From assembly GCF_003719195.1 (NCBI RefSeq), contig NZ_CP024996.1, positions 868,001 to 932,000 on the forward strand: a stretch of DNA of 64,000 bases. Reading direction: 5' to 3'. Under the pieces are notes generated by a model. It ran no database searches and had not been told where the DNA came from. It saw nothing but the letters and a program-made list of their open reading frames with translations. Made by a program: the position numbers and the translations under genes. This document shows positions 27,458 through 32,941 of this stretch, piece after piece. Positions within the stretch are counted from its first letter, which is position 1; every line of letters starts with the position of its first letter. The DNA comes from Herbaspirillum rubrisubalbicans. GTDB lineage: Bacteria > Pseudomonadota > Gammaproteobacteria > Burkholderiales > Burkholderiaceae_D.

Positions 27458-28384
27458 ATGAAAAACAACGCCATGGATTACCTGCCTCGTATGGTGATCT
27501 TTTCCCGCGTGGTCGAGCTGGGCGCCTTTTCCAAGGCAGCCCGCGAACTGGGGCTGACCTCTTCATCGGTCAGCCAGCACATCAGTGCCCTGGAAGCCAT
27601 CCTTGGCACCACGCTGTTGCACCGGACCACGCGCAAACTATGCTTGACCGAAGCCGGCCAGGGCTTCTATGCCCATTGCGCACGCATCGTGGCGCTGGCC
27701 AACGAGGCACGGGAAAACACCGAAAGCCTGCACAAGGAACTGGTGGGCGAGTTGCGCATCGCCGCCTCCAGCTTCATGGCTTCCGAATATCTGGTGCCGG
27801 CACTGGAGGAATTCATCCGCAGTCATCCGCAACTCAAGATCAACATTGACGTGAACGACCATAATGTCGACCTGATGGATAAGAGCGTCGACCTCGCCTT
27901 GCGCGTAGGCAAGCTGCCCGGTGCCGGTGATATCGCGTTGGCCCGGCTGGAAGCGGTGCTATGTGCGTCACCTGCTTACCTGCAAAGGCAGCCGCCGATT
28001 CGCCGTCCCGAGGATCTGCTGATGCATCATTTTCTCTTTTTCACGCCCGTTGGCGTGGATTTGACCTTGCGCAACCGCGTGGGGCATTGTGCGCAGTTGC
28101 GACTGACGCCCAGCATCGCCGTCAACCATGCCCGCTCCTTGCGCAAGCTGGTCTTGCAAGGGCATGGCGTGGCGCGCATGTTGAAGAGCAAGGTTCAGGA
28201 TGACCTGGATGCGGGGCGGCTACAGGTCGTGCTGCCGGATTGGTCGCCGGATAGTTATTGCGCCTTCATCACCACCAAGTATCGCGATGCGGTGCCGGCC
28301 AAGATCCTTGTCTGCATCGCGCAGATCCAGGCTTATTTCAGGCGTCGCCATCCGGGCGTGGACGATACCTTCCAGCCTGGCTGA
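27458..28384 (+). CDS. LysR-family transcriptional regulator
   Basis: A 308-residue regulator. The winged helix at residues about 6-65 (MVIFSRVVELGAFSKAARELGLTSSSVSQHISALEAILG, followed by LLHRTTRKLCLTEAG) is typical LysR of the CrgA/DsdC-like 'FxxVVExGSFSxAA' subgroup. The effector domain starts at about 92 (GELRIAASSFMASEYLVPAL). Start at 27458; MDYLPRM at 27473 is an alternative and neither has a strong ribosome binding site. Its 3' end overlaps the convergent HD-GYP gene by 52 bases. The target is unknown: no divergent intact gene is present, only the ompW remnant. Confidence 0.85.
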   Translation: MKNNAMDYLPRMVIFSRVVELGAFSKAARELGLTSSSVSQHISALEAILGTTLLHRTTRKLCLTEAGQGFYAHCARIVALANEARENTESLHKELVGELRIAASSFMASEYLVPALEEFIRSHPQLKINIDVNDHNVDLMDKSVDLALRVGKLPGAGDIALARLEAVLCASPAYLQRQPPIRRPEDLLMHHFLFFTPVGVDLTLRNRVGHCAQLRLTPSIAVNHARSLRKLVLQGHGVARMLKSKVQDDLDAGRLQVVLPDWSPDSYCAFITTKYRDAVPAKILVCIAQIQAYFRRRHPGVDDTFQPG

Positions 28385-29634
28385 TTGGCGCCACCCGGCA
28401 GCTCGGAAGTTGCGGCGTTGGTGCCTGGCTCCTTGAGCATGACCGGCCATGAACCGGTCACCAGTTCGTGGCTCCTGAGCCAGTCCTGTCCGCTGCGCTC
28501 GACGATGGCATCGGTCTGGCCGGCAGCGGCCAAGTCGACGATCTCGTGCTCCATTACCTCCATCGCCGCACTGGTGGTGAAGGCTTTCACTAACGGGCGC
28601 GTCAGGTCCTTGCGGTTCTGCTGGATCACCAGCGCAGTGCGTCCCGAGCGCAAGGTGACGATGGAGCCCAGTGGATAGATGCCCAGCATCTTCACGAAGG
28701 CCAGGAAGATGGTGCGGTCGAAGTGTCCCTGCCAGGAAGCCATGCGCGAGAGCGATTCGGCCGGATCCCAGGCCCCCTTGTAGACGCGGTGCGAAGTGAC
28801 TGCGTCGTACACGTCGCATACCGCTGCCATACGCGAAAACAGGCTTATCTTCTGGTCCTGCTGGCGTGCCGGATAGCCTGAGCCATCCATCTTTTGGTGG
28901 TGATGCAGGCACACGTCCAGCACTTCATCAGGTACGCCCACCAGGCCGCTCAGATAGGCGTGTCCCAGCACGGGGTGGCGCTGCACGATCTTGTATTCCT
29001 GCTCGGTGAGCAGACCGGGTTTGTTGAGTACTTCCAGCGGGATGAAGGCCTTGCCCACGTCGTGCAGGAATCCGGCCAGCCCGGCCTGTTGGCAGGCGGT
29101 GTCGTCCAGACCCAGGGTGCGCGCCAGTGCGACCATCATGGTACAGACCGCAATCGAATGCAGGTAGGTGTATTCATCGGCGCGCTTGAGGCGGATGATG
29201 CTCAACAGGGCATCCGCATTGTGTGCCAGCGAAGCGGCGATCTGCTCAACCAGTTCCTTGCACTTGGCTACGTGCAGCGATTTGCCCAGGCGTGCCTGGT
29301 TAAACACTTCCTGTGCAGTCTGCTGGCCCATCTCGTAGAGCCGCAGCGCTTCGAGCAGGTCGGGATTGAGTACATCTTGCTGTGTGGCAGGCGGCATGGA
29401 TGAGTCATCGGACGTCGAGTCCGGCGCTTGCAGCTCAGTGCTCGGTGCCAAGCCCTTGTGCACGTCGATCCAGCAATGTCCGAGTCCGGCCTGTTGTGCT
29501 TGCCGCACCTCGGCCTCGGTGCGAATGAGGAAGCTGGCGCGCCAGAAAGGCGAGGCAATCCACGCACCATCGAAGCCGGAAAAATACATGCCTATGCTGA
29601 GTTGGCTGACAGGGATTCGTCTTAGGCGCGTCAT
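28333..29634 (-). CDS. HD-GYP cyclic-di-GMP phosphodiesterase with DUF3391
   Basis: A 433-residue protein. N-terminal DUF3391 (about 1-110: VSQLSIGMYFSGFDGAWIASPFW), then a linker and the HD-GYP domain (about 160-330): HSIAVCTMMVALA, GFLHDVGKAFIPLEVLNKPG, and the signature HHHQKMDGSGYP. All metal ligands expected of an active enzyme appear present. It would hydrolyse cyclic di-GMP in the cytoplasm, favouring motility over biofilm. A paralogue with the same architecture lies at 58629-59846. The last 40 residues are low-complexity and overlap the LysR gene tail-to-tail. Confidence 0.9.
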   Translation of the reverse strand: MTRLRRIPVSQLSIGMYFSGFDGAWIASPFWRASFLIRTEAEVRQAQQAGLGHCWIDVHKGLAPSTELQAPDSTSDDSSMPPATQQDVLNPDLLEALRLYEMGQQTAQEVFNQARLGKSLHVAKCKELVEQIAASLAHNADALLSIIRLKRADEYTYLHSIAVCTMMVALARTLGLDDTACQQAGLAGFLHDVGKAFIPLEVLNKPGLLTEQEYKIVQRHPVLGHAYLSGLVGVPDEVLDVCLHHHQKMDGSGYPARQQDQKISLFSRMAAVCDVYDAVTSHRVYKGAWDPAESLSRMASWQGHFDRTIFLAFVKMLGIYPLGSIVTLRSGRTALVIQQNRKDLTRPLVKAFTTSAAMEVMEHEIVDLAAAGQTDAIVERSGQDWLRSHELVTGSWPVMLKEPGTNAATSELPGGANQPGWKVSSTPGWRRLK

Positions 29635-30134
29635 CGGATGGTGTGGAGTGGGAAGGAGGCATGGCGGCGTGGTTAGCCGGTGCTGCCCGCAGCCGAGCTG
29701 CGGCTTGCGCCAATGTATTACATTTCGCGAGGATTGATTAGGGGCCTGTTTTTAACAAGTGTGGTAAATCATTTTCTGTAATTCTCCGACAGCACCAGCG
29801 CATGGACTGGGGCGTCGTACATTGTTAAGCAGAATTAATGAGTTCTTTCGCAAAAAGATGGCTAATCAAATTGCATCGCTTGTAATACAGTTGCTTGGCC
29901 GAACCCTGCCGGGATGTGTCGGGGGGCACAGCGGGCGTCAGCCCGCACCGGCGCTGTGCAGCCATGGAGGGGATTGCGGCTGCACGCCACACTGTCACGG
30001 TAAGGGAACGATGCCGACGATCGCAGGATGCACCCTGACCCTGGCAAACGGGACGGCAGTCAATGGACAGGTCAGGCATCCGCTCGGCATCGTGATCGAC
30101 ATTGGCATGCCACACTACCAGCAGCCGGTAGCTG
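29635..30134. other. intergenic region upstream of the HD-GYP gene
   Basis: About 500 bp with no supported gene. Overlapping frames on both strands (29822-30256 +, 29825-30235 -) lack ribosome binding sites and run into the fold-back element. Confidence 0.55.
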
Positions 30135-30402
30135 GAACTCATTTCATAAATAGGCGTGAGATGCGTTCTGCCCAGAAAGGGCGCTGGCAAGGCGCGCGAC
30201 GCGTCGTGTGGCGGTGCCACACGCAAGGAGCGCAACGCGGCCAGCGCCCTTTCTGAGCAGAACCCGAAGGGAGCGGCCCGTTTGGGCGAATTGCTGCGTT
30301 ACGAATTTGGGTCAAGACGCCCAGTCTTGACCCAAATTCGCGCCTTGCACTTCATCCCAAACGGGACTCGCTCGCACTCACGCCTATTTATGAAATGAGT
30401 TC
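30135..30402. repeat. 268-bp fold-back element with nested inverted repeats (MITE-like)
   Basis: Terminal inverted repeats are 26 bp and perfect: 30135-30160, starting GAACTCATTTCATAAATAGG, against 30377-30402. Inside are two further arms. Arm 1: 23 bp at 30165-30187 against 30241-30263 with one mismatch, holding an 8-bp hairpin (CGTGTGGC 30205-30212 / GCCACACG 30216-30223). Arm 2: CCCGTTTGGG (30277-30286) against CCCAAACGGG (30356-30365), enclosing a perfect 17-bp hairpin (30302-30318 / 30324-30340) with a 5-base loop. The whole can fold into a cloverleaf-like structure. It contains no gene. The design suggests a non-autonomous mobile element or a structured repeat. Confidence 0.9.
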
Positions 30403-30646
30403 TAGCCAGTACTTGGCTGCCGGCGCGACATGAGTGCCTGGACCGTCTTTCTGTATCAGTGCATCACAGCAATCGGTCAGCACCGTCATTCCCGCTTATG
30501 TTGTCCTGGTGAAAACATCTCTCCCTTGCTGGCTTGATGCAGGTCAGCATTGCAGGAGATTGCGCTGGCGCACAGGTCGCCAGGCAGCATCATGGCAGTT
30601 GCGATCCCGCCCGCCTTGCGTGCCGTCTTCCGGCGGCCTTTTCCCG

Positions 30647-32941
30647 ATGAACTGGCGCCAACGATTCCATCTTCCGGTGGTACTGTGCTGCACCCTGGCA
30701 TTGGCTGGCGGTGTGCTGTTGCAGTTCTGGCAGATGCCGCTGCCGGCGGCCCGGCTATGGCAGGGCAGTGCCGCCCTGGTATTGCTGTTCGTGCTGGGCC
30801 AGACACTGCTGGCGCTATGGCGCCGGCAATGGGGGCTGGACCTGATCGCGCTGGTGACCCTGGCCGGCGCATTGGCCTTGCAGGAAAACCTGACGGCCGC
30901 CGTGATCGCGCTCATGTTCGTCACGGGTCGTGCCCTGGAAAACCATGCCGAGCGTCGCGCGCAACAGGATATGTCGGCCCTGCTGGCCAAGGTGCCGCAG
31001 CGTGCGCATCGCTATGAGAATGGGCGCATCGTCGAGGTCGCGCTGGCGCAGATCCGCCCTGGTGACCGCTTGCTGGTGCGCTCCGGTGAAACGGTACCGG
31101 TCGATGGCACGCTGTTGGGTGCGGCCGTGGTGGACCAGTCCACTCTGAGCGGCGAATCCTTGCCGCTCAGCTGTGCCCAGGGAGCGTTTCTGCCCAGCGG
31201 CAGTATCAATGCCGGCGAAGCCTTCGAGCTCCTGGCCAGCAGTACGGCAGAGCAGGGCACGCTGGGCCACATCGTGCGCCTGGTCCATTCGGCCCAGCAA
31301 TCGCGGGCACCGGCCGCGCGCCTGGCGGACCGCTACGCCTTATGGTTCGTCCCGGTGGCGCTGGGACTGGCCGCGCTGGCGTGGCTGCTCAGTGGTGAGC
31401 CAGAGCGCGCACTGGCCGTGGCGGTGGTGGCCACACCCTGTCCGCTGATCCTGGCCGTCCCGGTGGCGCTGGTCTGCGCCATGTCACGTTGCGCCCAGCG
31501 CGGCGTGCTCATCAAGCATGGTGGTGCGCTGGAAAAGTTAGCCCATCTGCATACCCTGTTCCTGGACAAGACCGGTACCCTGACCAGCGGCAAGGCACGC
31601 CTGACCGCCATCGATGTTGCCCCAGGAATGGAACCGCACGACTTGCTCAGGCTGGCCGCTTCGCTGGAGCAACTGTCGGCCCATGCCATCGCCCAGGCGG
31701 TAGTGGCTGCCGCCCTCGCACGTGGCCTCCCCCTGGCGCTGCCCGAGCAGGTCAGCGAGCAGCCTGGTGCCGGCCTCACTGGTCAGGTCGATGGGCGCCA
31801 GGTGCGGGTAGGGACGCGTGACTTCGTGCTCGGTCTTGATGCACTCCCCGACTGGGCCGTGCATCCGGGCGCACGGATCGGTTATGAAGGAACGGCTGGG
31901 GTGTATCTGGCCCTGGATGGTCACTTGGCGGGGGTGATGCAACTGGCCGACCAAGTCCGGCTGGAAACGCCACGCGCATTGCGCCTGCTGCGTACACTGG
32001 GGGCGCAACGCATCGTGATGCTGACCGGCGATCATCGTGAGGTGGCCACGACCATCGGTCATGCCCTGGGCGTGGATGACATCTTGTCCGAGCAAACGCC
32101 AGCCTCCAAGCTGGAGGCCATTCGCCAGGCGCGCCAGCAAGGCGTCACCATGATGGTGGGCGATGGCGTCAACGATGCACCGGCGCTGGCTGCGGCCGAT
32201 GTCGGTGTGGCCATGGGCGCGCGCGGTGCTGCTGCGGCGGCCGAGTCGGCCCAGGTGGTCTTGCTGGTGGACCGGCTCGACCGTCTGGCCTTTGCTGTGC
32301 GCCTGGCGCAACAGACCCGCCGTATCGCCCTGCAAAGCGTGGTGGCAGGCATGGGACTGTCGTTGCTGGCCATGGTAGTGGCGGCACTGGGTTACCTGCC
32401 GCCGGTCGCGGGCGCGGTGTTGCAGGAGTTGATCGATGTGGCCGTCATCCTCAATGCGCTGCGGGTGCTGACGCTGGAGAAGGAAGAGGCCAGGGGACAG
32501 ATTTCGGCGGCAGACCTGCAGGCCTTGCAGCAGGAACACGCCGCCCTGGCCCCGGTCATTGATCGCCTGCTATGGCTGGCCGAGCGCTGCGATGTCTTGC
32601 CGGTGACGCAGTTGCGTGAGCAATTGCACTCGGTGAGCGGGCTGTTGACAACCCGCCTGCTCCCGCATGAGTCGGAGGATGACGCGCGGCTCTACCCGCG
32701 TTTGGCCAGATTGATCGGCGGGCGCGATCCGCTGGCTTCCATGAGCAGCACGCATCGCGAAATCCATCGCCTGAGTCGCACCATCGAACGGCTGGCGGCC
32801 GATATGAATACCTGCGCTGCCAGCCAACCGCCCGATGCTGCCACCTCGCAGGAAGTCCGCCATGCGCTGTATGCGCTGGAAGCCATCCTGCGGCTGCATT
32901 TCGCCCAGGAGGAAGAAATCTTCCATGGGCTTTCTTCCTGA
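30647..32941 (+). CDS. P1B-5-type metal-transport ATPase with C-terminal hemerythrin domain
   Basis: A 764-residue P-type ATPase. Actuator SGES loop at about 168-171; membrane metal motif TPCP (263-266) instead of CPC; phosphorylation motif DKTGT (307-311); TGDHR; hinge GDGVNDAPAL. The usual HP dipeptide appears as SAHAIA. After the last helix, residues about 655-764 form a hemerythrin-like domain (HESEDDARLYP, STHREIHRL, LRLHFAQEEEIF), whose His/Glu pattern suits a diiron site. TPCP plus hemerythrin defines group P1B-5, whose characterised member Nia of Sinorhizobium is linked to Ni and Fe. There is no N-terminal heavy-metal-associated domain. I start at the ATG at 30647; upstream in-frame sequence looks non-coding. 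Converges on a siderophore receptor. Confidence 0.88.
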   Translation: MNWRQRFHLPVVLCCTLALAGGVLLQFWQMPLPAARLWQGSAALVLLFVLGQTLLALWRRQWGLDLIALVTLAGALALQENLTAAVIALMFVTGRALENHAERRAQQDMSALLAKVPQRAHRYENGRIVEVALAQIRPGDRLLVRSGETVPVDGTLLGAAVVDQSTLSGESLPLSCAQGAFLPSGSINAGEAFELLASSTAEQGTLGHIVRLVHSAQQSRAPAARLADRYALWFVPVALGLAALAWLLSGEPERALAVAVVATPCPLILAVPVALVCAMSRCAQRGVLIKHGGALEKLAHLHTLFLDKTGTLTSGKARLTAIDVAPGMEPHDLLRLAASLEQLSAHAIAQAVVAAALARGLPLALPEQVSEQPGAGLTGQVDGRQVRVGTRDFVLGLDALPDWAVHPGARIGYEGTAGVYLALDGHLAGVMQLADQVRLETPRALRLLRTLGAQRIVMLTGDHREVATTIGHALGVDDILSEQTPASKLEAIRQARQQGVTMMVGDGVNDAPALAAADVGVAMGARGAAAAAESAQVVLLVDRLDRLAFAVRLAQQTRRIALQSVVAGMGLSLLAMVVAALGYLPPVAGAVLQELIDVAVILNALRVLTLEKEEARGQISAADLQALQQEHAALAPVIDRLLWLAERCDVLPVTQLREQLHSVSGLLTTRLLPHESEDDARLYPRLARLIGGRDPLASMSSTHREIHRLSRTIERLAADMNTCAASQPPDAATSQEVRHALYALEAILRLHFAQEEEIFHGLSS

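Follow-up and report, generated by a model that had tools for sequence, protein, structure and literature searches.

What kind of element is the 268-bp stretch at positions 30135-30402 of the window (the whole 64,000-nt stretch of Herbaspirillum rubrisubalbicans DNA that was analysed), and why is its interior so strongly folded? The initial annotation described a fold-back element with five nested inverted repeats and no coding, and offered three readings: a MITE mobilised in trans, a single-strand-transposed element, or a structured RNA. Using a complementarity check, we found all five inverted repeats. The perfect 26-bp termini, the 10-bp arm and the hairpins of 8 and 17 bp are as described, and the arm given as 23 bp is in fact 24 nt long with one mismatch. 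The folding is far beyond chance: the predicted DNA fold has -115.1 kcal/mol, compared to a mean of -47.8 for shuffled sequences (z = -17.95), and the RNA fold has -183.2 (z = -17.88), with none of the 200 shuffles as stable in either case. Open reading frames overlap the element (e.g., 30156-30398, 80 aa) but traverse the palindromes, and there is no convincing coding. The upstream neighbour, an HD-domain/DUF3391 protein (28333-29634), is on the minus strand and the downstream neighbour, a P-type ATPase ORF (30434-32941), is on the plus strand; thus, the window copy lies between divergent genes.

The interior consists of two homologous arms of about 114 nt, inverted and on opposite strands, which meet at a CCC-NNN-GGG centre. 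They are enclosed by a left terminal inverted repeat (30135-30160, plus strand), the outer 20 bp of which, GAACTCATTTCATAAATAGG, are identical to those at the left end of L172, an IS5-family element, and by a right repeat (30377-30402, minus strand) complementary to the left one at 26 of 26 positions. Both arms are matched over their full length by covariance models: arm 1 (30158-30271, plus strand) by R1 and R2, with 113.2 bits for R2, and arm 2 (30263-30380, minus strand) by R2 on the other strand, with 65.7 bits. All parts of arm 1 are given on the plus strand: (i) the basal helix P1, in which 30165-30188 pairs with 30240-30263 (24 nt, the single mismatch included); (ii) the conserved internal-loop strand GCAAGGCG (30187-30194) and the conserved opposite strand GCAACGCGG (30232-30240); (iii) the apical hairpin P3 (30205-30223), with 8 bp between 30205-30212 and 30216-30223. 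The centre, shared by both arms, is the mini-hairpin CCC-GAA-GGG with a GNA-type triloop (CCCGAAGGG, 30263-30271). Arm 2 has a 10-bp basal helix (30277-30286, plus strand, pairing with 30356-30365), an apical 17-bp hairpin (30302-30340, plus strand; 30302-30318 with 30324-30340) and the conserved GCAAGGCGCG, read on the minus strand at 30339-30348. On the right, the element is followed by TA (30403-30404), the right half of a target duplication. On the left stands TG (30133-30134) where other copies have TA, and this is probably the left half of the same duplication, altered by a point mutation.

A blastn search of the source genome returned six near-complete copies of the window family, together with fragments and 35-bp minis. 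Scanning the same genome with R2 revealed at least 21 arms, which form ten two-armed elements and one single-armed element (at least 11 elements), and these counts are lower bounds, with 150 of 6509 candidates scored. Two types of terminal repeats occur in this genome, six elements having the GAACTC end and five having an end of the GGGCCTGTTCAC type, and the interior plan behind the second end type is the same as that of the window family. Among the sampled genomes of the family, 29 of 145 match the window element, and two sister genomes each contain at least five near-identical copies at different places. TA is found on both sides of L002-L005 in the source genome and, over all 136 elements, on both sides in 76 cases and on one side in 45, although the choice of boundaries favours TA. 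A vacant site was found for one copy, L087, which has the second end type and lies between surA-like and pdxA-like sequence: of 22 sister loci listed, 15 show a surA-pdxA-like junction (7 were unreadable), and the element is absent from all 15 readable junctions. For the window copy itself, the relatives offered the ATPase at 75% identity in one sister genome only, with no alignable flank. The element is thus a MITE: it is short and lacks a transposase gene, and it has terminal inverted repeats, dispersed copies at unrelated sites, a target duplication, vacant sites for one copy and partner elements with the same ends. Occurrence as a single copy with no empty sites, which the initial annotation had named as a refutation, does not apply to an element that is multi-copy in its genome.

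The ends of the element point to a partner of the IS5 family. The outer 19-20 bp of the window copy's ends are common to full-length IS5-family elements of 853-855 bp, namely L172 and L173 (855 bp, same genus as the source) and L175 (853 bp, another genus), which have ends GAA[CT][TC]CATTTCATAAATAG and TA flanks. The L175 protein belongs to the IS5 family (NF033580, 211 bits with a cut-off of 110; Pfam DUF4096 and DDE_Tnp_1). As for the IS427 group, which is characterised by TA duplication and a frameshifted two-frame transposase, the flanks are TA, and two frames overlap at an A-run in L173 whereas L175 is a single frame. The source genome itself contains a decayed IS copy of 532 bp (4179208-4179739; L069 1501-2032) with the same ends as the window element. 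A C-terminal piece of its transposase is found at 99-100% identity at 12 places in genome G026 and at one in G059, and an autonomous partner with ends matching the window end type is present in G026, G059 and G002 (IS ends were examined in one copy each of G026 and G059). The terminal repeat of the decayed copy, L069, contains the stop codon of the transposase.

In the case of other end types, resemblance to an IS5-family end of the same genome, at 15 of 17 positions, was found in G085 and G574, which belong to two other genera, and in G574 at one end only. The other 12 genomes with an NF033580 match yielded no matching ends among the loci returned (30 loci were examined across 14 genomes), and 16 of the 30 carrier genomes had no match to this profile at E 1e-10. 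The transposase fragment likewise found no counterpart in the carriers G082, G116 and G142, which belong to the same genus. A search of the source genome for a partner of the second end type, using the end pattern, revealed none; it gave the known elements, several end-only minis of 49-57 bp and single ends. The missing partners could be explained by partner loss, by partners from other branches of IS5, or by incomplete sampling. We infer with good support from the shared ends that an IS5-family DDE transposase would recognise the ends of the element and mobilise it in trans, as the first of the three initial readings proposed. The second, a single-strand-transposed element, is not supported, as the terminal inverted repeats, the TA flanks and the DDE transposase point to ordinary DDE transposition; an IS200/IS605-derived element, which has no terminal inverted repeats or target duplication and uses an HUH transposase, was rejected on the same grounds. 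Nor is the element decaying from a larger known one, which the initial annotation had raised as a contrary case, since arms of this kind are missing from the 855-bp IS.

The arms keep their shape although their letters change. In a first alignment of 21 elements from one family, made without reference to structure, 25 of the 37 base pairs of arm 1 show two-sided change. Free structure prediction was poorer for arm 2 (22 pairs, 15 of them with two-sided change, the apical part not predicted); however, when read on the other strand, arm 2 matches the model of arm 1, and the two matches share the centre. Across 123 arms (alignment A4), two-sided compensatory change affects 35 of 37 pairs and 95.2% of cells are paired, and covariation is 0.861, whereas shuffled alignments give 0.181 (none of 500 reaches the observed value) and slid ones no more than 0.105. 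It should be noted that A4 was fitted to the structure and that the shuffles ignore kinship, so that these pair figures lean upward and the E-values of the models are rough; the first alignments, made without structure, agree with the fold of arm 1. The terminal repeats vary: in 56 elements, end identity ranges from 0.24 to 1.00 at a core identity of 60-70%, and at a core identity of 80-90% it still falls as low as 0.65. The shape of the two homologous, opposite-strand arms is thus kept by compensatory change across the phylum, whereas the terminal repeats vary.

Read in the sense frame, an arm consists of a basal helix, the loop strand C(A/T)AGGCG, a short helix, CGCNG and the apical hairpin, followed by CAAG, the short helix, GCAACGC and the basal helix. 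The alignment columns suggest that the two internal loops may represent one motif, C(AA)G / C(GCN)G, used in opposite sense. Counted in the sense frame of the arm concerned, G-T mismatches outnumber A-C mismatches by 159 to 41 when the model alignment is used. If the anchors disregard pairing, the excess is 64 to 29 (26 versus 10 arms, P = 0.011), and it persists among 43 less related arms (19 versus 7, P = 0.029). The strand asymmetry is only suggestive because the terminal repeats also lean toward G-T (31 to 19). These results suggest that the folded single strand of each arm matters. Of the third initial reading, a structured RNA, the structure stands, being clearly kept by compensatory change; the strand data do not separate RNA from single-stranded DNA.

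Model searches of the order and the phylum (model from the 21-element alignment, strict filters, nine candidates scored per genome) found arms in 131 of 399 and 62 of 398 sampled genomes, respectively, behind very different ends. A strict motif pattern gave at least 118 stretches; the 80 listed with names are mostly from Beta- and Gammaproteobacteria, and also include Roseibium, a Hyphomicrobiales bin, a Desulfovibrionaceae bin and a Pseudonocardia record, although bins and single records may be contaminated. Named hosts include Pseudomonas, Azotobacter, Acidovorax, Herbaspirillum and an alphaproteobacterium. The strict motif was also found in seven viral contigs, and the element at L125 in four plasmid records. 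There were no matches for the window element in 72,556 plasmid records, for the L125 element in E. coli records, or for the L231 stretch in phage records.

We regard as probable an explanation in which the locus is an IS5-mobilised, non-autonomous element that carries a conserved, functional twin-hairpin passenger. The passenger may work as a folded single strand, of RNA or of DNA, a weaker part of the explanation that derives from the pattern of mismatches. A different view of the same arms is that they serve transposition itself, as a DNA device in which the arms, folded as single strands or as a cruciform, help the IS5 transposase or a host factor to pair the ends. The near-palindromic element, and arms that accompany many end types, are consistent with such a device. 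So is the centre, which is CCC-NNN-GGG in 122 of 136 elements; NNN is GNA or TNC in 112 of these 122, which means that one strand carries a GNA triloop, and GNA triloops are unusually stable in DNA. However, the full-length L172, L173 and L175 have no such arms at their ends, single arms occur, and the source genome contains minis that consist of ends only. We consider a device of this type possible but rather unlikely.

The genomic context bears on another function, a bidirectional transcription terminator or an mRNA-stability hairpin, similar to REP, ERIC or the R repeats of P. fluorescens. The hairpins are indeed very stable, and copy L087 interrupts the loop of a hairpin that resembles a terminator, downstream of surA-like sequence. 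According to a crude GC3-based gene-caller script, 18 of 110 elements are in predicted genes, 78 are between genes and 14 are unclassified. The 78 intergenic elements comprise 49 co-directional, 21 divergent and 8 convergent cases, where intergenic length predicts 52.5, 26 and 21.5%; the deficit between convergent genes is significant (P = 0.013), whereas the co-directional share is not (P = 0.07). Among the 49 co-directional insertions, 30 are in pre-insertion gaps of 150 bp or less, compared to 21% expected by length. For example, a copy on a P. aeruginosa plasmid is separated by 28 bp from the preceding acyl-CoA dehydrogenase gene and by 22 bp from the CoA-transferase gene that follows in the same direction; a copy on an Azotobacter plasmid is far from genes that are listed as convergent in the PLSDB gene table, which is incomplete. 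TA-rich stop codons alone could draw insertions to gene ends and contribute to this pattern. Depletion between convergent genes and presence in tight co-directional gaps run counter to the placement of the R repeats, which are reported in PMC2718517 to be biased toward tail-to-tail gene pairs. The conserved internal loops are likewise not needed by terminators, and we judge this function unlikely.

A further alternative is an ordinary MITE with functionless hairpins, whose arms stay complementary because one is copied from the other during hairpin-templated repair and gene conversion. The resulting stems would be almost perfect inside an element yet differ freely among elements, as is the case here. 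However, such correction is expected to erase loops and to let lengths drift. The internal loops, which are non-complementary, keep their letters across the phylum while the stems change, and the arm and total lengths are nearly fixed, with 100 of 136 elements at 260-272 bp and several of the shorter values being boundary cuts. We judge templated correction improbable. Finally, an integron attC-like or other tyrosine-recombinase hairpin site is suggested by hairpins with internal loops and by GTT/AAC at the base of many arms, but is extremely improbable: GTT and AAC at the outer base (by eye on alignment A1) are in the reverse of the attC box order, RYYYAAC...GTTRRRY, they are absent in some families (L109, L114), and the terminal inverted repeats and TA flanks fit DDE transposition.

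How might a conserved passenger in a probably IS5-mobilised element be of use? One arm would read correctly on each strand, so that any transcript or single strand would carry one arm in the sense fold, and the orientation of the insertion would be irrelevant because the arms lie on opposite strands. The most likely use, which is speculative, is that an insertion in an operon does no harm because the fold lets RNA polymerase or mRNA decay get past it, in analogy to the put RNAs of phage HK022. Harmless insertion would explain the persistence of the element between tightly spaced co-directional genes. In a broader reading, which we put forward tentatively as a possibility, the arms represent a phylum-wide structured nucleic-acid class that rides on IS5-type elements, swaps its terminal repeats to those of the local IS5 lineage, and has a fold that makes operon insertions tolerable either way. 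The class would have a fixed geometry (a basal helix of about 20 bp, an internal loop used twice, a short middle helix and an apical hairpin) and would occur singly or as an inverted pair. A MITE is commonly seen as no more than an empty shell framed by two transposase sites; in this case, it is the shell that varies and the interior that persists, one folded module recurring behind numerous unrelated ends at a fixed size and with strong compensatory change. If the reading is true, a device made of nucleic acid is at work inside a parasite of parasites, and the old question of how highly structured insertions survive inside operons gains a precise, testable fold.

Among 23 single-arm candidates, 10 have terminal repeats, 8 of them measuring 155-161 bp (L208, L217, L250, L256, L271, L275, L296 and L303, one of which is in a Pseudonocardia record), and 13 are without. 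The orientation of single arms to genes is mixed (3 sense, 2 antisense, 3 convergent and 2 divergent) and therefore gives no support to an orientation rule.

Compared to known systems, the element is a MITE, a known kind, with an unusual passenger. Scanning the window with Rfam 15 gave no matches at the gathering score; the seven sub-threshold matches, at E up to 5, are all of eukaryotic miRNA or snoRNA types. Twister-sister-like and k-turn-like readings of the internal loop were dropped, and the Rfam scan of the window listed neither. We found no description of the element in the open-access literature searched. REP and REPIN elements, built on a 20-40 bp palindrome with a GTAG or CGTC tag and a RAYT partner, were rejected for an element of 268 bp with terminal inverted repeats and a DDE partner.

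The closest parallels in mobilisation are the MITEs of IS5 origin, similar to MITEPsy1 of P. syringae (100 nt, 4-nt duplication, few species), which are also non-autonomous, with ends like a local IS5-family IS and a short TA-containing duplication; as far as the description in PMC3189936 goes, the present element differs by a length-conserved passenger that recurs behind many end types across the phylum. The R0 and R2 repeats of P. fluorescens are likewise hairpin-forming intergenic repeats with ends that match a local IS, and have been proposed to be MITEs, but they measure 89 and 110 bp and are strain-bound, with a tail-to-tail bias and with no phylum-wide loop motif reported in the sections of PMC2718517 on these families. 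Correia/NEMIS elements share terminal repeats of about 25 bp and TA at the termini, and differ in that their account in PMC2229807 is of one genus and of no two-armed conserved interior; their transcribed hairpin is cut by RNase III (PMC2229807). Two arms joined by a linker are found in the Caulobacter CIR, which, as outlined in PMC2229807, is about 110 bp long, has a GANTC motif in the loop and has arms not enclosed by end-to-end pairing. Pae-1 of P. aeruginosa is an intergenic repeat family with two adjacent stem-loops, but has 84 bp and is from one species, and terminal repeats are unmentioned in its description in PMC2267715. MRSC-65-2, one of 250 mobile or repeat candidates in PMC11109978, is likewise abundant and mobile, with a structure that shows covariation and, in some cases, a transposase gene nearby; it was rejected as a match on its text description (PMC11109978), a single long stem with UYCCGG repeats, the present element being two-armed. 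It is possible that the element overlaps one of the other 249 candidates of PMC11109978.

Several further features of the copies were observed. At L014, L016, L021 and L026 (match at 1501-1535), minis of 34-35 bp have the form TA-GAACTCATTTCATMAATAGGCGTGAGATGCGTTC-TA, L021 being without the right TA; they represent a left element end closed by a cryptic end from inside arm 1. Armless minis of 49-57 bp with the second end type are found in the source genome (G000) at 306918-306966, 582691-582747, 2878307-2878363, 3019969-3020023 and 2463282-2463334. The copy at L087 (1504-1769) is inserted in the loop of the terminator-like hairpin between surA-like and pdxA-like sequence, and, prompted by this copy, we considered a preference for hairpin-loop targets. 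Flank complementarity of 133 elements gave 10 cases at a score of 10 or more, compared to 0.13 expected; we claim no target preference because the top cases read as terminal repeats cut short by the TA-favouring boundary. The P-type ATPase ORF next to the window copy (30434-32941) has a hemerythrin HHE domain at its C-terminus according to Pfam, which is, to our knowledge, an unusual combination. In L004, L005, L006 and L043, the inner hairpin of arm 1 is deleted exactly between the direct repeats GCAAGGCGCGCGACGCG / GCAAGGAGCGCAACGCG, one repeat being left. L047 and L043, from families with different end types, share one position in arm 2 at which each has an insertion of about 13-15 bases (GGGGCGGCCATCCG), similar in the two.
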